DNA from: a bacterium | GTDB taxonomy: Bacteria > 4484-113 > JAGGVC01 | Direction of reading: 5' to 3' | Length of the DNA: 45,000 bases | Assembly: GCA_039961635.1 (NCBI GenBank) | Contig: JABRWB010000027.1 | Span: forward strand, 1 to 45,000 | In this document: in pieces, positions 8,794 to 18,902 of the stretch | Numbering within the stretch: the stretch's first letter is position 1 | How the letters are laid out: each line of letters starts with the position of its first letter | Notes under the pieces: generated by a model | What the model saw: the letters and a program-made list of their open reading frames with translations, nothing else | Database searches by the model: none | What the model was told of the DNA's origin: nothing | Made by a program: the position numbers and the translations under genes

Positions 8794-9405
8794 ATGAAGC
8801 GTAGTGAGTTGGCTGACGATCGGAGGCTTTCAACCGAAGATCAAAAGCGTCTTTCAAGGGAATTCCTTGAACACATTTACAGGCTGCCTGACGGCGAGCG
8901 AATCAAGCTATGCATCCAGTGCGGCACCTGCTCGGGTTCATGTCCGACCGCCGGAAGCATGGAGTTTTCTCCCAGGGAGATCATTGCCGCGTTGCGCGCG
9001 GGGATGCTCGACAGGGTGCTTCGCACGAACACCGTCTGGTACTGCACCAGCTGTTATTACTGCACGGTGCGTTGCCCGCAGAAGATCAAGTTCACCGACG
9101 TGATGTACGAGCTGAAGCGGCTGGGAATAATGTACGGGCTGTACCCCAAGGACTCCGGGGCGCCGATCTTGTCCCGGACGTTTGCAGAGCTAGTGGACCT
9201 TTACGGCCGCAATCCGGAAACGCTTTTGATGCAGAAATATTACTTCCGGGTTGGATTGCTTAAGGCGTTGGATAACGTTTCGATGGCGAAGGACTTGTAC
9301 TGGAAGGGCAGGCTTGGACTGGCGCCGAAAAAGATCAAGGGAACGGCTCAAATCCAGAAAATTCTCGCCCACGTCCTTTCTTACGAGGCGGAAGGAGATG
9401 CGTGA
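8794..9405 (+). CDS. hdrC: Heterodisulfide reductase subunit C-like iron-sulfur protein
   Basis: Cytosolic 203-residue electron carrier linking HdrA to HdrB. Two classic [4Fe-4S] motifs are intact: C40, C43, C46, C50 in CIQCGTCSGSCP, and C84, C87, C90, C94 in CTSCYYCTVRCP. The spacing and the helical remainder (FTDVMYELKRLGI) are typical of HdrC. GGAGG lies six bases before the ATG. It is the first gene of the ten-gene redox operon; its stop overlaps the next start (TGATG). Glycolate or succinate dehydrogenase-type iron-sulfur subunits are similar, but the following HdrB and HdrA make HdrC the best call. In methanogens the partner substrate is CoM-S-S-CoB; the bacterial substrate is unknown. 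Confidence 0.9.
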   Translation: MKRSELADDRRLSTEDQKRLSREFLEHIYRLPDGERIKLCIQCGTCSGSCPTAGSMEFSPREIIAALRAGMLDRVLRTNTVWYCTSCYYCTVRCPQKIKFTDVMYELKRLGIMYGLYPKDSGAPILSRTFAELVDLYGRNPETLLMQKYYFRVGLLKALDNVSMAKDLYWKGRLGLAPKKIKGTAQIQKILAHVLSYEAEGDA

Positions 9406-10340
9406 TGCGCGATAAAGGGAATGGCAAAATCCGGTTTCCGCGAAGCGAATACCTTTATTATCCCGGTTGCTCGCTTGAACACACCGGCCTGATGTACGAC
9501 ACGTCGGCGCGTGCCGTAATGAAAGCACTTGGCAGCAGCCTGAAGGAGCTGGATGACTGGAATTGTTGCGGCGCGACAAGCTATATGTCAATCCGCGAGC
9601 TCCGCGCCTTCGCCGTTTCGTCCAGGAACCTTGCCTTGGCCGAAATGTCCGGCGCGGACCAGCTTGTCACGGTTTGCAGCGCTTGCTTCACAACGCTGGG
9701 CAAGACGAACCGTTATTTCCGCGAGGACGCGACGCTTCGGGCGAGGATCAAGGATGCGCTTGCCGCAGCGGACCTCAAATACGACGGCAGCTTGGAAGTG
9801 CGGCACCTGCTTGACGTGATCGTCAACGACTTCGGCGTCGAAGAAGTCAAGAAGCGTGCAAAGCGCGGGCTGTCAGGAATGAAGGTCGCTCCGTACTACG
9901 GATGCCAGATATCGCGCCCTCACGGTACTTTCGATGATCCCGAAAACCCGTCCAGCTTCGATCCGATACTCTCCGCGCTGGGCGCGGACGTGCTGAGATT
10001 TCCGCTTCGCGCCAGGTGCTGCGGCGGCATGCAGATGATCACTTCTTCCGAAGCTGCCATTCCGCTCGTTCGAGATTTGCTTAAATGCGCCAAGGACGAA
10101 GGAGCGGAGTGCATAGTCTGCTTTTGCCCGCTCTGCCACGTCAACCTGGACTGCTACACCGGCGCGGTCGAAAGAAAGTTCGGTGAAAAATACGCAATAC
10201 CGATCATCTACTTCACGCAGGTGCTGGGGCTCGCGCTGGGGCTGTCCGCGAAGCAGCTCGACATAGGGAGGGAGCTTGTGGACACCAGCGCCTTCGTCGA
10301 AAAATACGCGGCCGAGGCCGCGGCGGGAGCAAGCGCATGA
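9405..10340 (+). CDS. hdrB: Heterodisulfide reductase subunit B-like, two CCG domains
   Basis: The 311-residue product has two cysteine-rich CCG domains, each binding a non-cubane [4Fe-4S] cluster in HdrB. Domain 1 has C22, C54-C55 and C91-x2-C94; domain 2 has C167, C205-C206 and C241-x2-C244. No ligand is missing, so disulfide-reducing chemistry looks preserved. I start at ATG 9405, which overlaps the hdrC stop by one base and has GGAG at good spacing; GTG 9402 is the alternative. It overlaps hdrA by four bases (ATGA), so translation is probably coupled. The likely electron acceptor is a disulfide or another partner enzyme; nothing here identifies it. Confidence 0.9.
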   Translation: MRDKGNGKIRFPRSEYLYYPGCSLEHTGLMYDTSARAVMKALGSSLKELDDWNCCGATSYMSIRELRAFAVSSRNLALAEMSGADQLVTVCSACFTTLGKTNRYFREDATLRARIKDALAAADLKYDGSLEVRHLLDVIVNDFGVEEVKKRAKRGLSGMKVAPYYGCQISRPHGTFDDPENPSSFDPILSALGADVLRFPLRARCCGGMQMITSSEAAIPLVRDLLKCAKDEGAECIVCFCPLCHVNLDCYTGAVERKFGEKYAIPIIYFTQVLGLALGLSAKQLDIGRELVDTSAFVEKYAAEAAAGASA

Positions 10341-11263
10341 GCGACGAAAAGTACAAGGGAAACGGAAGGAAGGGAAATGGAAAGGCTCTTCCCCGCGTTG
10401 GCGTTTTCGTCTGTCATTGCGGAACGAACATCGCGGGAACGGTGGACGTAGCGAAGGTCGTCGCTTACGCCGCCACTTTGCCCGGCGTCGTCGTGGCGAA
10501 AGAGCACAAGTACATGTGCAGCGATCCCGGCCAAAGCATGATCCAGCAGGATATCGAAGAGCACAAGCTTGATCGCGTGGTAGTCAGCTCCTGCTCGCCG
10601 CTGATGCATGAATCCACGTTCAGAGGCACGGTGGCGGATGCGGGGCTGAACCAGTTTCTGTTCCAAATGGCGAACATTCGCGAGCAATGCTCCTGGGTGC
10701 ACGAAGACCGCCAGCTGGCCACGCAAAAAGCGATGAAGCTCGTGCGAGCGGCGGTCGCAAGGGTGATTCACCACACGCCGCTTGAAATCAAGACCGTTCC
10801 GGTCAATCCCGCAACGCTGATCGTCGGCGGAGGAATCGCAGGAATCGAAGCTGCGCTCGCGCTAGGCAAGGCCGGACACCCAGTTTATCTTGTCGAGCGG
10901 GAGGCAAGCATCGGCGGCAAAATGGCCCAGTTTGACAAAACGTTTCCAACACTCGACTGCTCGGCCTGCATTCTAACGCCAAAAATGGTTTCAACCGCGA
11001 AAAACAAAAATGTGACTTTGTTTACTTTCAGCGAGGTCGAGGAAGTATCCGGCTATGTGGGCAACTTCAAGGTGAAGATACGCAAGAAGCCGCGAATGGT
11101 GGACGTGGACGCGTGCATCAACTGCGGAAGCTGCTGGCAGAATTGCCCGGCAAGCATCGCGCCGACCTCGCGCAGGATAAAAATCGGCGACCGCGTGATT
11201 AAAGAAAGAGTCGGGCACATGCCCGTCACTCCGATTGCGGCAGGAGGCGGAAAGGATGGCTAG
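10337..11263 (+). CDS. hdrA: HdrA N-terminal half (split flavin subunit)
   Basis: The 308 residues match only the first half of a usual HdrA of about 650 residues. The N-terminal [4Fe-4S] domain has C26, C28, C61 and C86. The thioredoxin-reductase-like FAD domain starts with GGGIAG (164-169), followed by the HdrA hallmark FPTLDCSACILTPKMV (C208, C211). The inserted ferredoxin then begins with C260, C263, C266 and C270, and the chain stops 38 residues later. The missing part, including the second ferredoxin cluster and the rest of the FAD domain, occurs at the end of the gene at 13605-15410. In the family the FAD is the bifurcation site, so both halves should assemble to make one flavin site. 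No frameshift remnant is seen at the end; the gene runs cleanly into nuoE with an eight-base overlap. Confidence 0.9.
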   Translation: MSDEKYKGNGRKGNGKALPRVGVFVCHCGTNIAGTVDVAKVVAYAATLPGVVVAKEHKYMCSDPGQSMIQQDIEEHKLDRVVVSSCSPLMHESTFRGTVADAGLNQFLFQMANIREQCSWVHEDRQLATQKAMKLVRAAVARVIHHTPLEIKTVPVNPATLIVGGGIAGIEAALALGKAGHPVYLVEREASIGGKMAQFDKTFPTLDCSACILTPKMVSTAKNKNVTLFTFSEVEEVSGYVGNFKVKIRKKPRMVDVDACINCGSCWQNCPASIAPTSRRIKIGDRVIKERVGHMPVTPIAAGGGKDG

Positions 11264-11771
11264 AGCGACTTACAATCCCGCAACGGTCAAGGACGAACTA
11301 GAGGAATTGTTGCGCGGTTACGAAGGCGACCAGTCCGAAGTGATTATGGTTCTTCAGGATATTCAGGACAAGTACAACTGGCTGCCCCGCGAAGCGCTTT
11401 CGTACGTCGCCCGCAAATGGGAAATACCGATGACCGAGCTTTTCCACATTGCGACGTTTTACAAGGCATTCAGCCTGAAACCGCGCGGCAAGCACATCTT
11501 GTACTTGTGCATGGGAACCGCCTGCCATGTAAGGGAAGCTCCGTTCATCCTTGATGCGCTGGAGCGCGACTTCGGAATCAGAAACCGCGAAACCACGCCG
11601 GACGGCTTGATCACGCTCGAAACCGTCAATTGCGTCGGAGCGTGCGCGCTGGGACCCATTCTCGTCGTCGACGGCGAGATGAAGGGAAACATGACCCAAG
11701 CGAAGGCGGGCGGAATAATCAAGAGGCTACGCAAGCAAAGCGCGGAGGAGGCCCAGGATGCCACGGCTTAA
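11256..11771 (+). CDS. nuoE: NuoE/HoxE-type [2Fe-2S] subunit
   Basis: A 171-residue thioredoxin-like subunit of NADH-oxidising modules. The [2Fe-2S] ligands are C85, C90, C126 and C130 (C-x4-C and C-x3-C). The helical N-terminus VIMVLQDIQDKYNWLP and MTELFHIATFYKAF is family-typical. I use ATG 11256, which has AGGAGG upstream and gives the usual N-terminus; ATG 11235 would add seven residues. It overlaps hdrA's end by eight bases and nuoF's start by 14. It probably transfers or stores electrons next to the FMN of the following subunit, inside the hydrogenase-Hdr complex and not in respiratory complex I, since no membrane subunits are present. Confidence 0.92.
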   Translation: MARATYNPATVKDELEELLRGYEGDQSEVIMVLQDIQDKYNWLPREALSYVARKWEIPMTELFHIATFYKAFSLKPRGKHILYLCMGTACHVREAPFILDALERDFGIRNRETTPDGLITLETVNCVGACALGPILVVDGEMKGNMTQAKAGGIIKRLRKQSAEEAQDATA

Positions 11772-13602
11772 CTCGATCGCGGAACTCGAAATCCATCGGG
11801 CGCAGGTAATCGAGCGGCAAAAGAAGCAGCACAAGGTAATCTCGCTATGCGCGGGAACCGGCTGCGAGGCCTGCGGATGCAAGGATGTACACATCAAGTT
11901 CGTGCAGGAATTGAACGCGCGCAATCTGAGCATCCCGGTCAAGCTAACCGGCTGCCACGGATTTTGCGAGCGCGGGCCGATAGTGATCATCCGACCGGCG
12001 AACACGATTTACTTCAAAGTTCGCCCACGCGACTGCGCGGAAATCATCGAAACCTCAATCGTCGGCAGCGGCGTAGTAGACAGACTTTGCTACACCGACG
12101 AAAACGGCAAGCCGCTTCCCGACGAGCACGATGTACCGTTTTACAAAGACCAGATGCGGATCGTGTTCGGTTTGAACGGTCTCGTCGACCCGATGGAGAT
12201 AGACGATTACATCGCGCAGGGCGGATACTCCGCGCTCGCAAAAGTTCTTTCAGGAATGGCACCCAAAGAAGTAATCGAGGAAATCAAAACGAGCGGGCTG
12301 CGCGGACGCGGCGGCGGCGGTTTCCCCACCGGACGCAAGTGGGAAACGTGCGCAAACGCCAAGGGCGAAAAGCGTTTTGTAATCTGCAACGCGGACGAAG
12401 GCGATCCTGGTGCGTTCATGGACCGCTCGATATTGGAAGGCAATCCCCACAGCGTCCTTGAAGGGATGCTGATCGCGGCGTACGCGATCGGCAGCAGGGA
12501 CGGATTCATTTACGTCCGGCACGAATACCCGAAGGCAGTTCGCACATTCGCCAATGCTTTGGCGCAGGCGGGAAAGTACGGACTTCTTGGAAACAACATC
12601 CTCGGCACCGACCTTTCGTTCGAAGTCGGAATCAACCGTGGGGGCGGAGCGTTCGTATGCGGTGAATCAACTGCGCTTATGGCCAGTCTTGAGGGCCGTG
12701 TCGGCGAGCCGCGGGCGAAGTACATACACACCGTTGAGCACGGGCTGTACAACCTTCCATCCAATTTGAACAACGTCGAAACATACGCGACGGTGCCGCA
12801 CATAATCAACAACGGCGCCGATTGGTTTACGAAACTCGGTACGAAAGGCAGCCCGGGAACAAAGGTGTTTTCGCTTGTCGGCAAGGTCAACAACACCGGG
12901 CTGATCGAAGTGCCGATGGGAATCACGCTTCGGGAAATCATTTACGGAATCGGCGGCGGAATCCAGAAAAACAAGGCTTTCAAGGCGGTGCAGACGGGCG
13001 GGCCATCCGGCGGCCTGCTGCCGGAAGGAATGCTCGACCTGCCCGTGGATTTCGACAAGCTGTGGGATGCCGGCTCGATGATGGGTTCCGGCGGAATGAT
13101 CGTCATCGACGAAAACAGCTGCGTAGTGAACATCGCGCGGTTTTTCCTTAACTTCCTTAAGGACGAAAGCTGCGGAAAGTGCATCCCGTGCCGCGAGGGC
13201 ATCCGATACATGATGGATATTCTGGAGCGGATCGAGCGCGGCGAAGGAAAGATGGAAGATATCGACACGCTTGAGGAAATGGCGCATACCGTGGCCGACA
13301 CTTCGCTGTGCGGCCTCGGAAGCAGCGCACCAAACCCCGTTCTCTCGTCGCTGACCTATTTCAAGGACGAGTATATTGCCCACATACAGGACAAAAAATG
13401 CCCTGCTGGTATCTGTAAGGAGCTGATCCAGTACCTGATCATCCCGGAATTGTGCAATGGGTGCGACGTTTGCGCTAAGCTTTGTCCCACAAAGGCGATC
13501 ACGGGAAAGAAGGATGAAGTGCACGTTATCGACACCAAACTTTGCGAGAAGTGCGGTGCGTGTCTTGAATCCTGCCCCAGCGAAGCGATCGTGAGGAGAT
13601 AA
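11758..13602 (+). CDS. nuoF: NuoF/HoxF-type NADH-binding flavoprotein
   Basis: The 614-residue FMN subunit exchanges electrons with NAD(H). It has an N-terminal [2Fe-2S] thioredoxin-like domain (C31, C36, C66, C70). The NADH/FMN core follows, with GRGGGGFPTGRKWE (about residue 182) and NADEGDPGAFMDR. The [4Fe-4S] motif ESCGKCIPCREG lies near 470. Two C-terminal [4Fe-4S] motifs follow (CNGCDVCAKLCP near 565, CEKCGACLESCP near 595). This long form is the one found in NAD(P)-linked hydrogenases such as HydB/HndC, not in complex I. The start overlaps nuoE by 14 bases. NAD versus NADP preference cannot be read safely from the sequence. Confidence 0.93.
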   Translation: MPRLNSIAELEIHRAQVIERQKKQHKVISLCAGTGCEACGCKDVHIKFVQELNARNLSIPVKLTGCHGFCERGPIVIIRPANTIYFKVRPRDCAEIIETSIVGSGVVDRLCYTDENGKPLPDEHDVPFYKDQMRIVFGLNGLVDPMEIDDYIAQGGYSALAKVLSGMAPKEVIEEIKTSGLRGRGGGGFPTGRKWETCANAKGEKRFVICNADEGDPGAFMDRSILEGNPHSVLEGMLIAAYAIGSRDGFIYVRHEYPKAVRTFANALAQAGKYGLLGNNILGTDLSFEVGINRGGGAFVCGESTALMASLEGRVGEPRAKYIHTVEHGLYNLPSNLNNVETYATVPHIINNGADWFTKLGTKGSPGTKVFSLVGKVNNTGLIEVPMGITLREIIYGIGGGIQKNKAFKAVQTGGPSGGLLPEGMLDLPVDFDKLWDAGSMMGSGGMIVIDENSCVVNIARFFLNFLKDESCGKCIPCREGIRYMMDILERIERGEGKMEDIDTLEEMAHTVADTSLCGLGSSAPNPVLSSLTYFKDEYIAHIQDKKCPAGICKELIQYLIIPELCNGCDVCAKLCPTKAITGKKDEVHVIDTKLCEKCGACLESCPSEAIVRR

Positions 13603-13604
13603 CG

Positions 13605-15410
13605 ATGAACGACACTCCAAACAACAAGAACGGCAAAGAAGAAAAACTGGTCACTTTCAGGATTGACGGGAAGGAGGTGACCGCGCCGGAGCGCAGCTTC
13701 CTTTTGAAGGCCGCCCGCGCGAACGGGATAGACATCCCGACGCTTTGCTATTACGAACACATCGAACCGTACAGCGTGTGCAGGATGTGCGTGGTGCAAG
13801 TCACGCGCAACGGCCGCCAGCGCATCGTGACCGCGTGCAATTTCCCGGTCCAGGAAGGAATTGTGGTCGAAACGCGCAACGAGAAAATTATCCAGCACCG
13901 CAAGTTGCTGATCGAAATGATGCTGGCGCGGCACAGCGAAGTGGAGGTCATAAAGAAGCTCGCGAAGGAATATGGAGTAACAAAAACGCGGTTCAAGTTG
14001 CAGCCGTCGGAGGAATGCATCCTTTGCGGGCTGTGCGTACGCGTTTGCAACGATCTCGTACAAGCTCACGCACTCTGCTTCGCGCAACGCGGCCCGGAGC
14101 GCTACGTGACGACGCCTTACGACGACTACGCGGACAATTGCATCGCTTGCGGCGCCTGCGTGCATGTATGCCCGACGAACCACATGAAACTGGAGCAGAC
14201 GGATGGCATAGAAATCCTGTATCCCGAAGTCACGCTCGGCCCGAACAATCCGATACACATCGATTTCATGCAAGCCGTGCCCGCCTCGCCCTGGATAGAC
14301 ACGGCAAGCTGTATTCACTTTCAGACCGACGGTTGCGGCGTATGCAGCGAAGTATGCCCGACGGATTGCATCCACTACGACATGCAGGACACCATCGAAG
14401 AAGTGGAAGTGGGCAACATCGTGGTCGCGTCCGGATTCAAGGGATTCGACCCGAAGCAGATGTACCAGTTCGGCTACGGGAAGCTTCCCCAAGTAATGAC
14501 GTCGCTCGAATTCGAGCGCGTTTCCAACGCGGGCGGCTCGACGGGAGGAAGGATTCTCACGCCGGACGGACGAAATCCGGAATCCGTTGCGATTTTGCAC
14601 TGCATCGGAAGCCGCGACAAGCATTACAACGAGTATTGCAGCCGCATCTGCTGCATGCAGTCGCTCAAGTTCGCGCATCTGATTCGCGAAAAGACCGGCG
14701 CCGAGGTTTACCAGTGCTACATCGACATGCGCTGCTTCGGAAAGGGATACGAAGAATTCTACAACCGGCTGCTTCACGAGGATGTTCACTTTATCCGCGG
14801 CAAGGCCGTGGAAGTAACCGATTATTCTCCGGACGGCCTGCCGCCCGGAAAGGTAATGGTGCGCGTCGAGGACACGCTCCTTGGAATCGTGCGCAAAATC
14901 CCGGTGGATATCGTAATTTTGTCCATCGGCCTGGAGCCCGCGGTCGGCGTGGATGTTTTGAAGCAAACGCTTAGAATTTCGCGCAGCCCTGACGGGTTCT
15001 ATCTGGAGCGTCATCCCAAGCTCGCGCCGGTCTCGACCGCGACGGACGGAATCTATATCGCCGGATGCGCGCAGGGGCCGAAGGACATCCCCGACACCGT
15101 CGCGCAGGCGAACGCGGCGGCCGCGGCGGTGCTTCAGGTCATTTCTCAAGGCCAAGTGACGCTCGAACCGACGACCGCGGAAGTGATGGAAGAACTTTGC
15201 ACGGGATGCCAAACCTGCTTGAGCGTATGTCCATACGATGCGATCCGCCGTGACGAGCAAAAAGAAAAAGCGGTCATCAATGACGCTCTTTGCAAGGGAT
15301 GCGGAACGTGCGTCGCCGCCTGCCCGAGCGGCGCGATCAAGCAGTGGGGATTCGACCGCGAACAGATAATGGCCGAAATCGACGCCGTGCTTGCCGAAGT
15401 GGCCGTGTAG
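13605..15410 (+). CDS. Fusion: HoxU/NuoG-like ferredoxin domain + HdrA C-terminal half
   Basis: The 601 residues combine two families. Residues 15-90 form a plant-type [2Fe-2S] domain (C48, C59, C62, C78), as in HoxU/NuoG. The following region, where NuoG binds its His-Cys3 [4Fe-4S] cluster, keeps a histidine (H110) but has no cysteines. Two [4Fe-4S] motifs come next (C138-C148 and C179-C189). From about residue 216 the chain is HdrA: PIHIDFMQAVP, the ferredoxin motif C236-x7-C244-x2-C247-x3-C251, VGNIVVASGFKGFDP, and the FAD-domain end TDGIYIAGCAQGPKDIPD. Two C-terminal [4Fe-4S] motifs close it (C532-C542, C563-C573). It supplies what the 308-residue HdrA lacks. Two bases separate it from nuoF. 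Confidence 0.9.
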   Translation: MNDTPNNKNGKEEKLVTFRIDGKEVTAPERSFLLKAARANGIDIPTLCYYEHIEPYSVCRMCVVQVTRNGRQRIVTACNFPVQEGIVVETRNEKIIQHRKLLIEMMLARHSEVEVIKKLAKEYGVTKTRFKLQPSEECILCGLCVRVCNDLVQAHALCFAQRGPERYVTTPYDDYADNCIACGACVHVCPTNHMKLEQTDGIEILYPEVTLGPNNPIHIDFMQAVPASPWIDTASCIHFQTDGCGVCSEVCPTDCIHYDMQDTIEEVEVGNIVVASGFKGFDPKQMYQFGYGKLPQVMTSLEFERVSNAGGSTGGRILTPDGRNPESVAILHCIGSRDKHYNEYCSRICCMQSLKFAHLIREKTGAEVYQCYIDMRCFGKGYEEFYNRLLHEDVHFIRGKAVEVTDYSPDGLPPGKVMVRVEDTLLGIVRKIPVDIVILSIGLEPAVGVDVLKQTLRISRSPDGFYLERHPKLAPVSTATDGIYIAGCAQGPKDIPDTVAQANAAAAAVLQVISQGQVTLEPTTAEVMEELCTGCQTCLSVCPYDAIRRDEQKEKAVINDALCKGCGTCVAACPSGAIKQWGFDREQIMAEIDAVLAEVAV

Positions 15411-15428
15411 CGAAAGGAGATATGAAAA

Positions 15429-15905
15429 ATGCCGACTCTTGAAGTGATGAATGCCGAGCCGAAAAACGCAAGCGACATTACGGGCCGGTTCGAGCCGAAA
15501 ATAGTCGCGTTTCTCTGTCTTTGGTGCAGCTACACTGGCGCGGATCTGGCCGGCACCGCGCGCATGAAGTACCCGCCCAACGTTGTGCCGATTCGCGTGA
15601 TGTGCAGCGGGCGGATCGATCCGGAGTTCATCTTTAAGGCGTTCGCCGAAGGCGCGGACGGCGTTGCCGTGTGCGGATGCCATCCCGGCGACTGCCACTA
15701 TATCGAAGGCAATTTCAAAACCATGGCGCGCATGCCCATAGTAAGCAAGTATCTGCAGCAGATGGGCATCGAACCGGAGCGCTTCCGCCTTGAATGGATC
15801 AGCGCCGCCGAAGGCGAGAAGTTCATGAATTTCGCAACCGAAATGACGGATGAGGTGCGCAGGCTGGGGCCGCTCAACTGGAAGGCCACGGTAAACGCGA
15901 AGTAG
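15429..15905 (+). CDS. mvhD: MvhD-like [2Fe-2S] linker subunit
   Basis: The 158-residue protein belongs to the hydrogenase delta-subunit family that passes electrons from the [NiFe] enzyme to HdrA. Conserved cysteines are C30 and C33 (FLCLWC), C59 (VMCSGRID), and C82, C84 and C89 (VCGCHPGDCHY). In the methanogen Mvh-Hdr complex MvhD docks on HdrA, which fits its place here directly after the HdrA C-half. AAGGAG precedes the ATG. The first 20 residues are a short non-conserved extension. It is nine bases from the small-subunit gene. Confidence 0.92.
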   Translation: MPTLEVMNAEPKNASDITGRFEPKIVAFLCLWCSYTGADLAGTARMKYPPNVVPIRVMCSGRIDPEFIFKAFAEGADGVAVCGCHPGDCHYIEGNFKTMARMPIVSKYLQQMGIEPERFRLEWISAAEGEKFMNFATEMTDEVRRLGPLNWKATVNAK

Positions 15906-15914
15906 GAGATCGAT

Positions 15915-16913
15915 ATGGCAAAGCTCAAACTTGGACTTTACTGGGCTGCAAGCTGCGGAGGATGCGAAATCGCGGTTCTTGAAATCGGCGATCGGATACT
16001 CACCCTTTTGGAGCATGCGGACGTCGTTTTCTGGCCGTGCGTGGCGGATTTCAAGTACAAGGACGTACAGGCCTACGACGACGGATACATGGACGTCTGC
16101 CTGTTCAACGGAGCCATTAGGAACTCCGAAGGAGAAGAAGTCGCGCAACTGCTGCGCAAAAAATCCAAGGTGCTTGTCGCATTCGGAAGCTGCGCCACGA
16201 AAGGGTGCATCCCGGCGCTTGCCAATCTTTATGGCAGGCAGGAGCTTTTGGACCGCGCATATCTGGAGTGCGAAAGCGTGGATAATCCCCAGAAGATTTT
16301 TCCCCAGACCGAAACCGCGGTTGCTGAAGGTAAATTGCACTTGCCCGAGTTCTACACGACGGTGCGGACGTTGGCCGACGTCGTGCCGGTTGATTATTTC
16401 CTTCCTGGTTGCCCGCCGGTCGCCGACAGAATCTGGGACGTCGTGCTGGCGATCGTCGGGGGCAATCTCCCTTCAGCCGGCAGCGTTGTAGGCGTAGGGG
16501 ACAAGGCGGTGTGCGACGAGTGCAAGCGGGAAAAACGCCAAGTCAAGATTACCAAATTTCACCGCCCGCACGAAATAATACCCGAGCCGGACTGGTGTTT
16601 GCTTGAGCAAGGCATTTTGTGCATGGGGCCGGCGACGCGCAGCGGATGCGGGGCATTGTGCCTGAACGCCGACATGCCCTGCCGCGGCTGTTACGGCCCG
16701 ACAGCGAACGAAGAAGATCAAGGCGCGGCGATGATGGGAGCCATCGGTTCGATTATCGACGCGAAGGATGACGACGCGGCGAAAGCGATAATCGACGGCC
16801 TGCCCGATCCCGCGGGATACTTTTACAGGTTCGGCATGTCCAAAAGTACGCTGCTACGCAGAAAATTGCGCAACAACGGCAAGCGGGAGGTTAAGATCGA
16901 GGTGCTAAAGTGA
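15915..16913 (+). CDS. mvhG: [NiFe] hydrogenase small subunit, MvhG-like
   Basis: The 332-residue electron-relay subunit carries the proximal cluster ligands C14, C17, C93 and C166 (SCGGC, GSCATKGC, PGCPP). Eight further cysteines fit two more [4Fe-4S] clusters: C200, C203, C228, C236, C245, C249, C256 and C259. There is no twin-arginine signal, so the enzyme is cytosolic as in group 3. The start has GGAG upstream; the end overlaps the large-subunit start by four bases. The F420-non-reducing (Mvh, group 3c) type is favoured by the adjacent mvhD and hdr genes. Group 3d enzymes have a shorter small subunit with fewer clusters, which argues against them. Confidence 0.93.
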   Translation: MAKLKLGLYWAASCGGCEIAVLEIGDRILTLLEHADVVFWPCVADFKYKDVQAYDDGYMDVCLFNGAIRNSEGEEVAQLLRKKSKVLVAFGSCATKGCIPALANLYGRQELLDRAYLECESVDNPQKIFPQTETAVAEGKLHLPEFYTTVRTLADVVPVDYFLPGCPPVADRIWDVVLAIVGGNLPSAGSVVGVGDKAVCDECKREKRQVKITKFHRPHEIIPEPDWCLLEQGILCMGPATRSGCGALCLNADMPCRGCYGPTANEEDQGAAMMGAIGSIIDAKDDDAAKAIIDGLPDPAGYFYRFGMSKSTLLRRKLRNNGKREVKIEVLK

Positions 16914-18391
16914 AAAAAGTCAGCATCGATCCCGTGACCAGGCTTGAAGGCCACGGCAAAATAGAGATTTTCCTCAACGACGACGGCAGCGTTGCGAACG
17001 CGTACCTGCAAATTCCGGAGTTGCGCGGCTTCGAGAAATTCGCCGAGGGCAGGCCGGTCGAGGAACTTCCCCGCATCACTCCGCGTATTTGCGGCGTATG
17101 CCCGGAAGCGCATATGATGGCTTCCGCGAAGGCGTGCGACGCGGTGTATCACGTCGAGCTGCCGTCCACCGCAAAGAAGCTGCGCGAGCTTCAATATTCC
17201 GCTTTTTATATTGGCGATCACACAACGCACTTTTACGCGCTGGGAGGCCCGGACTTCGTAATGGGGCCGGATGCGGACCCTGCCGTGCGGAACATCATCG
17301 GCGTCATCGGCAAGGTCGGAGTCGAAATCGGCAAGCAGGTCATCCAATGCCGAATCTGGTGCCACGAAGTTGCAAAAATCCTGGGCGGCAAGCCGGTCAC
17401 TCCGATAAACGCAATCCCCGGCGGAATGAGCAAGGGGTTGAACGCGGAAGAAGCCGCGCGCGTCCGCGAAATCGCGGACTTTTGCGTGGGTTTCGCGGAA
17501 TTCACGCTCAAGATCGTCCACGACGTCGTCCTTGCGAATAAAGCGTATGTGGATTTGATTCTATCCGATCCTTACACGCACGCAACGTACAACATGGGTC
17601 TGGTGGACGAAAACAACCACACGAATTTCTACGACGGCAAGGTGCGCGTAGTCGGGCCGGACGGCAAGGAGCACTGCAAATACGAGCCGAAGGATTACCT
17701 CAATTGGGTGGCGGAGCACGTCGAGCCGTGGAGCTATCTAAAGTTTCCGTTCCTCAAACAGATCGGCTGGAAGGGATTCACGGACGGGCTTGACAGCGGA
17801 GTATACAAGGCGACACCGCTTTCGCGAATCAACACGAGCGACGGGATGGCCACGCCCAAAGCGCAGGAGGCGTACGAGGAGTTTTACGATGTACTTACGG
17901 GCGACCGGTCCGGCAAGAAAAAGGTCAACCAGACGCTTGCAACCCACTGGGCGCGCGTCGTCGAGATAATGTACGCTGCGGAAAGGTTCCGAGAGCTCGC
18001 ATACGACGAGGAGATTACTGGCCCGAATTTCCGCGTCATTCCCACCGAGAAACCTGACGAAGGCGTCGGCATAGTCGAGGCGCCGCGCGGCACCCTGACT
18101 CACCACTATTGGACGGACGAGCGCGGCATCGTGAAAAAAGCCAACCTGATCGTGGGTACGACGAACAACAACGCACCCATTGCGATGAGCATCAAGAAGG
18201 CCGCGCAAGGTTTGATTCGGGCGGGCAGGGAAATAACCGAGCCGATGCTGAATATGATCGAAATGGCTTTCCGTGCGTATGATCCCTGCTTCGGGTGCGC
18301 TACTCACAGCCTGCCGGGGAAAATGCCGCTTGTGGTAACGCTGCGCGACCAGTCCACGGGCGAAGTAATCCGGCGGATCGAGAGGCTATAG
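16910..18391 (+). CDS. mvhA: [NiFe] hydrogenase large subunit, MvhA-like
   Basis: The 493-residue catalytic subunit splits or forms H2 at a NiFe(CN)2CO centre. The L1 motif RICGVCPEAH gives C61 and C64, and the L2 motif DPCFGCATH gives C460 and C463. All four Ni ligands are present. Twenty-seven residues follow His466 and would be removed by the maturation protease; that protease gene is next. The start VSIDPVTRLEGHG is standard. The gene order small-large-protease and L2 with CATH fit group 3c. The hyp genes needed for the metal site are not in the window and must lie elsewhere. Confidence 0.95.
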   Translation: MKKVSIDPVTRLEGHGKIEIFLNDDGSVANAYLQIPELRGFEKFAEGRPVEELPRITPRICGVCPEAHMMASAKACDAVYHVELPSTAKKLRELQYSAFYIGDHTTHFYALGGPDFVMGPDADPAVRNIIGVIGKVGVEIGKQVIQCRIWCHEVAKILGGKPVTPINAIPGGMSKGLNAEEAARVREIADFCVGFAEFTLKIVHDVVLANKAYVDLILSDPYTHATYNMGLVDENNHTNFYDGKVRVVGPDGKEHCKYEPKDYLNWVAEHVEPWSYLKFPFLKQIGWKGFTDGLDSGVYKATPLSRINTSDGMATPKAQEAYEEFYDVLTGDRSGKKKVNQTLATHWARVVEIMYAAERFRELAYDEEITGPNFRVIPTEKPDEGVGIVEAPRGTLTHHYWTDERGIVKKANLIVGTTNNNAPIAMSIKKAAQGLIRAGREITEPMLNMIEMAFRAYDPCFGCATHSLPGKMPLVVTLRDQSTGEVIRRIERL

Positions 18392-18416: not shown

Positions 18417-18902
18417 ATGGCGCGCACAATAATCGTCGGACTCGGCAACGACATTCTCTCGGACGATGCTGCGGGCATCCACGTCGCGCGAAGGCTCGCG
18501 CCATTACTTAAGGAAACGCGTGGTGTAGCGGTCGTCGAAGCTACGGTCGGCGGAATCAGGCTGATCGAGCTTCTTTCGGGATTCGACCATGCGGTCATCG
18601 TGGACGCCATTGTCCGTGAAAACGAGGCGCCGGGAACGATCCTGCGGTTTACCATGTGCGATTTTTCGCCGACTACGCGAACCGGCGCGTTGCACGACAT
18701 TGACCTGCCTACCGCACTGGAGATGGCAATGCGCATCGGCATGTCAATTCCTCACGAAATTGAGTTGATCGCGATTGTTGCGTCGGACGTTTTGACAGTC
18801 AGCGAGGAAATGTGCCCCGAGGTCGAGGCCGCGGTAAATAAGGTTGTATCGGGATTGGCGGACAGATTCGCCTCCTGGTCGGCTGGTAACCGGCTGAAGT
18901 AA
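18417..18902 (+). CDS. Hydrogenase maturation protease
   Basis: The 161-residue endopeptidase of the HycI/HoxW/HyaD family cuts the C-terminal tail of the large subunit after nickel insertion. It starts with IIVGLGNDILSDDAAG, holding the GxGN motif and the first metal-binding Asp. VEATVGGIRLIELL and HAVIVDAIV contain the second Asp region, and IPHEIELIAI the conserved His. It begins 25 bases after mvhA and is the last gene of the operon; no intrinsic terminator follows. A weak TAACCT box six bases before its ATG could give an extra leaderless transcript, but this is uncertain. Confidence 0.9.
   Translation: MARTIIVGLGNDILSDDAAGIHVARRLAPLLKETRGVAVVEATVGGIRLIELLSGFDHAVIVDAIVRENEAPGTILRFTMCDFSPTTRTGALHDIDLPTALEMAMRIGMSIPHEIELIAIVASDVLTVSEEMCPEVEAAVNKVVSGLADRFASWSAGNRLK

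Follow-up and report, generated by a model that had tools for sequence, protein, structure and literature searches.

A predicted two-chain HdrA holding a HydABC/Bfu-type NADH module in a bacterial hydrogenase operon

We analyzed a 45,000-nucleotide stretch of bacterial DNA (the window; GTDB lineage Bacteria; 4484-113; JAGGVC01; GenBank assembly GCA_039961635.1, contig JABRWB010000027.1, positions 1 to 45,000) in which HdrA, the flavin adenine dinucleotide (FAD) subunit of heterodisulfide reductase, is encoded in two pieces with nuoE and nuoF between them, the second piece being fused in frame behind a HoxU/BfuA domain. Judged from sequence, the two-chain protein remains an HdrA by the joint homology of both chains and not by single-chain form. 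We consider it fairly probable that the products of the operon form a single soluble complex, the two-chain HdrA of which carries a HydABC/Bfu-type NADH/ferredoxin module in its gap. The likeliest product would be an enzyme acting on H2, a disulfide, NAD and ferredoxin, with two bifurcating centers joined via a two-chain ferredoxin.

The operon consists of ten consecutive + strand genes arranged head-to-tail: HdrC, HdrB, HdrA N-half, NuoE, NuoF, HoxU-HdrA C-half fusion, MvhD, MvhG, MvhA and hydrogenase protease. The genes and their parts are:

8794-9405, + strand: hdrC-like gene, 203 residues, two CxxCxxCxxxC motifs; TIGR03290 at 84.8 bits, under cut-off
9402-10340, + strand: hdrB-like gene, 312 residues, two CCG domains (PF02754, two stretches) with both cysteine motifs
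10337-11263, + strand: HdrA N-half, 308 residues; comprises the N-terminal cluster domain, the beginning of the FAD domain and inserted-ferredoxin motif 1
11114-11149, + strand: inserted-ferredoxin motif 1, CINCGSCWQNCP, N-half residues 260-271
11256-11771, + strand: nuoE/hydC/bfuC-like gene (PF01257), its start overlapping the hdrA stop
11758-13602, + strand: nuoF of the HydB/BfuB kind, 614 residues, Fe-S regions at the N-terminal and C-terminal ends
13605-15410, + strand: HoxU/BfuA-HdrA C-half fusion, 601 residues
13638-14204, + strand: HoxU/BfuA part of the fusion, residues 12-200; [2Fe-2S] cysteines and two four-cysteine motifs
14250-15407, + strand: HdrA C-half part of the fusion, residues 216-601; motif 2, remaining FAD domain, C-terminal ferredoxin
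15429-15905, + strand: mvhD-like gene, 158 residues (PF02662)
15915-16913, + strand: mvhG-like [NiFe] hydrogenase small subunit (NF045875)
16910-18391, + strand: mvhA-like [NiFe] hydrogenase large subunit, 493 residues (NF041785)
18417-18902, + strand: hydrogenase maturation protease gene (PF01750; TIGR00072 above cut-off)

HdrA is divided between two genes

The N-half (10337-11263) aligned with residues 4-262 of the solved HdrA chain 5odc_A (331.6 bits) and stopped shortly past motif 1, CINCGSCWQNCP, in agreement with a preliminary description of this DNA in which a 308-residue HdrA ended just past the first cluster of the inserted ferredoxin. HdrA resumes, as also described there, at residue 216 of another gene, a 601-residue open reading frame (ORF) in which PIHIDFMQAVP begins at that point; the distance from motif 1 is about 3.1 kb (11149 to 14250) rather than the 4 kb first given. 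The proposed in-frame fusion of hoxU to the cut hdrA end was borne out by the alignment of fusion residues 18-196 with the BfuA-like chain 9mqx_A and of residues 178-598 with 5odc_A 245-652 (E 1.3e-102), the best HdrA chain for the fusion being 8rvu_a (E 2e-112). The two 5odc_A alignments overlap slightly: the final HoxU motif, CxxCxxCxxxCP, occupies the place of motif 1 in intact HdrA, and the N-half also retains its own motif 1.

By sequence and fold, the N-terminal, FAD/thioredoxin-reductase and ferredoxin domains of HdrA were found only in the two proteins jointly. No single polypeptide holds them all, and the two ORFs (10337-11263 and 13605-15410) scored 373 and 425 bits with the family model NF040770 against a cut-off of 1100. 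Since each half lies so far under the cut-off, a split HdrA is easily missed, which is a caution for genome annotation. Single-chain models placed the N-half on 5odc_A 2-240 (Z 24.5, root mean square deviation (rmsd) 10.9 Å, 226 residues aligned), residues 264-581 of the fusion on 5odc_A 316-635 (Z 24.4, rmsd 8.7 Å, 310 aligned) and the first part of the fusion on 9mqx_A (Z 22.9, rmsd 3.5 Å, 211 aligned). In these models the fold ranges of the two halves on 5odc_A, 2-240 and 316-635, are complementary.

Adjacent genes of the operon overlap or almost touch: ATGGCTAG at 11256-11263 is the overlap of the hdrA stop with the nuoE start, nuoE and nuoF share 14 bases, and 2 bases separate nuoF from the fusion. 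The nuoE start is more likely ATG 11256 than TTG 11235. The same gene order was found in two other genomes of the phylum (G008 and G003) and, from hdrB onward, in a third (G002) where the contig ends; therefore the split is not an assembly error. Across three genome pairs, the ratio of nonsynonymous to synonymous substitution rates (dN/dS) of the two halves lay at 0.013-0.085, although dS was saturated (1.4-2.4). This shared order together with the low dN/dS ruled out an assembly error or a recent frameshift, and agrees with the earlier view that the split, in translationally linked genes, is not recent; it is old and kept under selection.

A search of the window's genome (96.2% complete, 100 contigs) with an HdrA profile found no second hdrA; matches outside this locus did not exceed 34 bits and were confined to brief ferredoxin-like segments and a single brief FAD segment. 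A hidden intact hdrA was rejected for the part of the genome that this search covers, and another full-length copy, which the preliminary description had named as evidence that would speak against the split, was thus not found within 96% of the genome. Additional HdrA proteins are present in the relatives G008, G002, G003 and G005.

Cluster ligands of the two chains

A ferredoxin with two [4Fe-4S] clusters builds each of them from three ligands of one motif and one ligand of the other. The two four-cysteine motifs of HoxU are complete by themselves; therefore motifs 1 and 2 of HdrA, which lie on separate chains, would need each other. Motif 1 was present in 59 of 59 profile-extracted N-halves (L050 was left out, as were L220 and L221, which the locus edge truncates), and 69 of 69 fusions had motif 2 together with the two HoxU motifs, the C-half counts being partly built in by the search profile. 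We aligned 29 N-halves (all 28 uninterrupted ones found plus the window) and 31 fusions (30 of the 33 found plus the window; L199, L202 and L225 were left out). Ligand cysteines were invariant in both alignments, which include five fusions from loci lacking nuoEF, and this holds for those of the N-terminal domain, the Cys197-type cysteine (whose role in HdrA is taken from part of PMC9012536) and those of the inserted and C-terminal ferredoxins. Residues of the FAD motifs were conserved on both chains.

The inserted module is of the HydABC/Bfu type

The best solved match of NuoF was 7t2r_B, subunit B of a bifurcating [NiFe] hydrogenase (751.6 bits, residues 28-611), with complex I chains far behind (2fug_1, 374 bits). 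Its cysteines are at 31, 36, 66, 70, 548, 553 and 566-606. The alignment with 7t2r_B (28-611) assigns it, by sequence, to BfuB, including the B2-B5 cluster regions that a non-bifurcating NuoF lacks; these Fe-S regions mark the bifurcating members according to the part of Schut 2022 (PMC9304861) used here. By the criteria in that part, the cassette classifies as a BfuBC core with a HoxU-like BfuA. Its sequences therefore identify it as a HydABC/Bfu-type bifurcating module and not plain Hox; a plain Hox diaphorase was ruled out by the closer match of NuoF to HydB-type chains. The stretch of BfuA between residues 78 and 138, to which we presume the cluster absent in type 2 BfuA to belong, is free of cysteines. 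This suggests type 2 in the scheme of Schut 2022, as laid out in the same part of PMC9304861. Elsewhere in the window's genome, a second HydB-type NuoF, 51% identical, lies on contig C13 (17046-18797) and a third, complex I-like NuoF on C31.

Distribution and architectures of split HdrA

Fusions were searched for with a profile of HoxU plus the junction (18 sequences), which in 15 genomes separated fusions (E <1e-100) from plain HoxU or HdrA (E >1e-79). With the window protein as query, the fusion was found in 4 of 10 genomes of the window's phylum; it was also present in 16 of 39 genomes of the phylum of a Calditrichaeota genome (G010), in at least 16 of 198 of the phylum of G013 and in at least 20 of 395 of the phylum of a Desulfatibacillum genome (G015), the last two being lower bounds from the best 5 or 10 candidates scored per genome. 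Among the best 80 matches, bacterial contigs bore, by their record titles, the names Calditrichaeota, Armatimonadetes, GN15, Desulfobacteraceae, Spirochaetales, Cloacimonadota, Chitinispirillaceae, Fibrobacterota and Neomarinimicrobiota, and archaeal ones the names Altiarchaeales and Thermoplasmata. Split HdrA, opened at one site and joined to a bifurcating NADH module, is a widespread HdrA variant, extending beyond one operon. No description of an HdrA split by NuoEF/HoxU was found in the literature searched, most subscription journals lying outside it, and the split may have been reported already.

Of 76 places with a fusion, we examined 70 (L139, L149, L153, L177, L180 and L186, on short contigs, were left out; L057 and L226 are one place); in 61 of these 70 the fusion is preceded by an HdrA N-half. 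Forty loci are of type I: 27 have separate N-half, nuoE, nuoF and fusion, one has the N-half and nuoF with nuoE undetected, one (L051) has the N-half fused to nuoE, six (L204-L208 and L225) have the N-half followed directly by the fusion, and in five the N-half was not seen owing to contig ends or gaps. In the 30 type II loci, an N-half without its N-terminal domain precedes nuoF and a single chain made of HoxU-HdrA_C and a second HdrA; this N-half is fused to nuoE in 19, separate in seven and not seen in four. All 19 N-half-NuoE fusions lack an intervening stop, and three have, like selenoproteins, a TGA within the FAD part. Loci L053, L054, L227 and L228 contain an unsplit tandem HdrA that has the type II domain order minus the cassette.

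Several features accompany these loci. Five (L202, L209, L211, L213 and L220) have a gene of 430-458 residues between the HdrA N-half and nuoE; that of L209 has ferredoxin, Fe-only hydrogenase C-terminal-like and FeS domains. Among the four type II loci with listed neighbors, two (L230, 11895-15249, and L233, 15114-15431) have downstream a DsrC gene (PF04358), an NAD/FAD oxidoreductase and a 4Fe-4S dicluster protein, recalling sulfhydrogenase-like sets and hinting at a protein disulfide partner there. That type II loci are simple bam operons was rejected, no BamB being recognized by eye among the neighbors of L228, L230, L232 and L233; the BamB family was also absent from the ten neighbors of L230, L233, L209, L040, L047, L048 and L054 scanned with Pfam, beyond which no further search was made.

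Among the additional HdrA of the relatives, three loci were inspected (L038, L039 and L041); in each, the hdrA reading frame continues past a TGA at the Cys197-type position, and by sequence these look like selenoproteins rather than split genes. L046 (1633-2478), L238, L240 and L241 likewise have an in-frame TGA at or near this cysteine, probably encoding selenocysteine; taken together, these loci include both intact HdrA and certain split N-halves. In L040 (3058-9264; genome G005, of the window's class) Mvh genes, with an mvhA 72% identical, lie beside a 608-residue HdrA seemingly without the inserted ferredoxin; a 434-residue HdrA-like protein encoded farther along has this ferredoxin and lacks the N-terminal domain and C-terminal ferredoxin, so that the two are perhaps a complementary pair.

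Hydrogenase and disulfide reductase partners

Directly downstream of the fusion gene lie mvhD, mvhG and mvhA. Hydrogenase subunits of the VhuA/VhuG kind beside mvhD and hdr genes place the enzyme in Group 3c (Mvh) of the [NiFe] hydrogenases; the best models, NF041785 (394.7 bits) and NF045875 (223.9 bits), both scored below their cut-offs. Genes of a group 3c hydrogenase adjoin those of heterodisulfide reductase in the cultured Caldithrix abyssi as well (PMC5317091). HdrB has the motif C-x(30-42)-CC-x(33-37)-CxxC at residues 23 and 168, so that both CCG motifs of the disulfide-reducing subunit are present. A benzoyl-CoA reductase subunit (BamB) was not found among the ten window genes scanned, and the operon consequently does not class as Bam-Bfu. 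A 994-residue open frame on the - strand (13356-16340), antisense to the end of nuoF, the fusion and mvhD, is probably a by-product of codon usage.

Origin of the split

When 149 HdrA C-regions were placed in a midpoint-rooted tree, 38 of the 40 window-type rows fell in a group of 41 with three unsplit HdrA (Shimodaira-Hasegawa-like approximate likelihood ratio test (SH-aLRT) 100), and type II rows fell among the first units of tandem HdrA. In L051, where an intact hdrA directly adjoins the split one, the split C-half grouped with this neighbor and L254 in a group of three (SH-aLRT 95), and the N-half also grouped with the neighbor (SH-aLRT 97). The separate place of L050 rests on its C-half alone, as a scaffold gap cuts its nuoF. 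A single clade of all split C-halves was rejected by the approximately unbiased (AU) test (p-AU 0.0014; the 149 rows thinned to 47 after removal of L236_INTn_1, L272_INT_1, the rows of L040 and the second unit of each tandem or type II protein), and the insertion, first pictured as one event, was not unique. In a set of 23 rows that excluded L050 and every type II, tandem or domain-less row, a clade of window-type and L051 C-halves was rejected too (p-AU 0.0007), the value for window-type rows alone being 0.41. For the N-halves, window-type plus L051 was borderline (p-AU 0.054 without L050 and L272; 0.109 with the L050 row in), and window-type alone gave 0.25. With 33 rows thinned from 103 (L068, L086, L121 and L245 left out), a single clade of fused NuoF+HoxU was not rejected (p-AU 0.173), which counts against repeated origins, and a window-type NuoF+HoxU clade was weakly rejected (p-AU 0.033). 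A single C-half origin being rejected and a single origin of the module not, the sequences therefore point either to at least three separate entries of the same module into HdrA, all at one site, or to exchange of HdrA halves around the module.

Insertion of a cassette into hdrA is the simplest history, and the in-frame N-half-NuoE fusion in 19 of 30 type II loci means that both insertion junctions are seen. The insertion part of the earlier proposal thus stands, and its hoxEFU-like cassette is replaced by one of the HydABC/Bfu kind. Our tentative suggestion, which we hold short of probable, is that the cleft between the two half-ferredoxin motifs of HdrA has served as a socket, opened on at least three occasions for the same HydABC-type module (in an ordinary HdrA of the window's group, in the first unit of a tandem HdrA and in a spirochaete HdrA). 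This would yield an enzyme with two unlike bifurcating centers, FAD and flavin mononucleotide (FMN)-FeS, joined by a ferredoxin that, as does the adjacent FAD site, draws on both chains. The repetition might instead be apparent, a single ancient HoxU-HdrA_C fusion having later had its HdrA part replaced by recombination with a local intact hdrA. The unrejected single origin of NuoF+HoxU and the intact hdrA beside the split copy of L051 agree with such replacement, which we regard as credible but somewhat doubtful: the L051 N-half groups with the intact neighbor too, so that both halves would need replacing, and the window-type NuoF+HoxU clade is weakly rejected. We think it unlikely that fission came first, with hdrA cut beside hoxU without a cassette and nuoEF arriving between the halves later or never. 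The six type I loci without nuoEF have the arrangement expected from it, but five of them lie together inside the window-type group of the midpoint-rooted C-half tree and not at its base, and the sixth elsewhere within it, which fits later loss; the 19 type II N-halves fused to NuoE also speak against it.

Proposed complex

In the scheme that we infer, from chain pairing and FAD site to electron path, substrates and direction, the N-half would contribute motif 1 along with its N-terminal cluster domain and the portion of the FAD site that contains GGGIAGIEAA, while motif 2, the C-terminal ferredoxin and what remains of the FAD domain would come from the C-half fused to HoxU/BfuA. The two motifs would pair into one ferredoxin with two [4Fe-4S] clusters and ligands from both chains, placing the HoxU clusters right beside the low-potential branch of HdrA. 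Electrons from H2 would enter through MvhAG, MvhD and the C-terminal ferredoxin of HdrA to FAD; from there one electron would pass via HdrC and HdrB to a disulfide, and the other via the two-chain ferredoxin and HoxU to the FMN of NuoF, and on to NAD+ and ferredoxin. All steps may be reversed. The inserted ferredoxin is described as the low-potential exit of HdrA in part of PMC9012536. Because HoxU is fused exactly at this ferredoxin, the arrangement suggests that electrons of its branch, leaving or entering, pass to the NADH/ferredoxin module rather than to free ferredoxin only.

Several observations weigh against a two-chain HdrA bound to this module. The single-chain models are middling (predicted local distance difference test (pLDDT) 73.1 and 72.7; predicted template modeling score (pTM) 0.63 and 0.43), with confidence poorest around motif 1 and the junction, and the half models superpose on HdrA at 9-11 Å rmsd. 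In these models the high rmsd is probably an effect of domain orientation; the low confidence fits an absent partner, yet is no proof of one. A genome 96% complete leaves room for a missing hdrA, and the motif counts are partly built in, as noted. The tie between the NADH module and HdrA, as first proposed, is not universal, since six type I loci keep the split without nuoEF between the halves. Of the genomes with these bare loci, two (G431 and G024) have a HydB-type NuoF elsewhere; in the other four of six none was found at E 1e-80, the matches being complex I-like with 39-41% identity. In such loci HoxU may, as a guess, pass electrons out to free ferredoxin or on to a module encoded elsewhere.

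That the halves are separate proteins with independent jobs, HdrA no longer being formed, seems very improbable. Their association is something that we infer, which leaves room for such independence; against it, dN/dS is low in both halves, ligand cysteines are invariant, the halves are neighbors in 61 of the 70 bacterial and archaeal loci, and the genome has no other HdrA as a substitute. The same complex might also run in the opposite direction, NADH and reduced ferredoxin feeding HdrA so that H2 is made or a disulfide reduced. This order is proposed for Bam-Bfu in part of Schut 2022 (PMC9304861), and the DsrC genes near L230 and L233 could offer a possible disulfide acceptor for NADH-derived electrons; yet nothing in the sequence fixes the direction, no DsrC is among the ten window genes scanned, and we consider this flow rather unlikely.

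If the one-complex proposal is true, two of the four known kinds of electron-bifurcating enzymes, HdrA and Bfu, are physically joined in one complex, which shows a possible way for cells to keep the flow of electrons between H2, NADH, ferredoxin and a disulfide in balance. Because the inserted-ferredoxin domain would be a natural docking point for NADH modules, the question of which HdrA branch it serves becomes testable.

Comparison with known systems

HdrABC-MvhAGD of methanogens (5odc) shares with the window HdrA, HdrB with both CCG motifs, HdrC, MvhD, MvhG and MvhA, here all in one operon. However, HdrA is a single chain there, without an NADH module, and its substrate is CoM-S-S-CoB. NuoE, NuoF and HoxU match the BfuC, BfuB and BfuA kinds of the Bfu family (HydABC; Schut 2022, PMC9304861, in part), whereas BfuA is here fused to half of HdrA, a type not described in section 5 of PMC9304861. 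Bam-Bfu, the class II benzoyl-CoA reductase complex, unites BfuABC and an HdrA module in one complex (PMC9304861, same part), as proposed here, with a benzoyl-CoA reductase subunit where the hydrogenase stands in the window. In HdrA9-11 of ANME-1 (Chadwick 2022, PMC9012536, in part), an NAD(P)-linked oxidoreductase, NfnB, likewise lies within the HdrA ferredoxin domain, but as about 500 residues inserted in one continuous chain, with NfnB instead of BfuABC and HdrA unsplit. Finally, the Acetomicrobium NiFe-Bfu hydrogenase (7t2r), whose B subunit is the best solved match of NuoF, combines a [NiFe] hydrogenase with a BfuABC module as the window does, in contrast without HdrA, HdrB and HdrC in the description given in part of PMC9304861.

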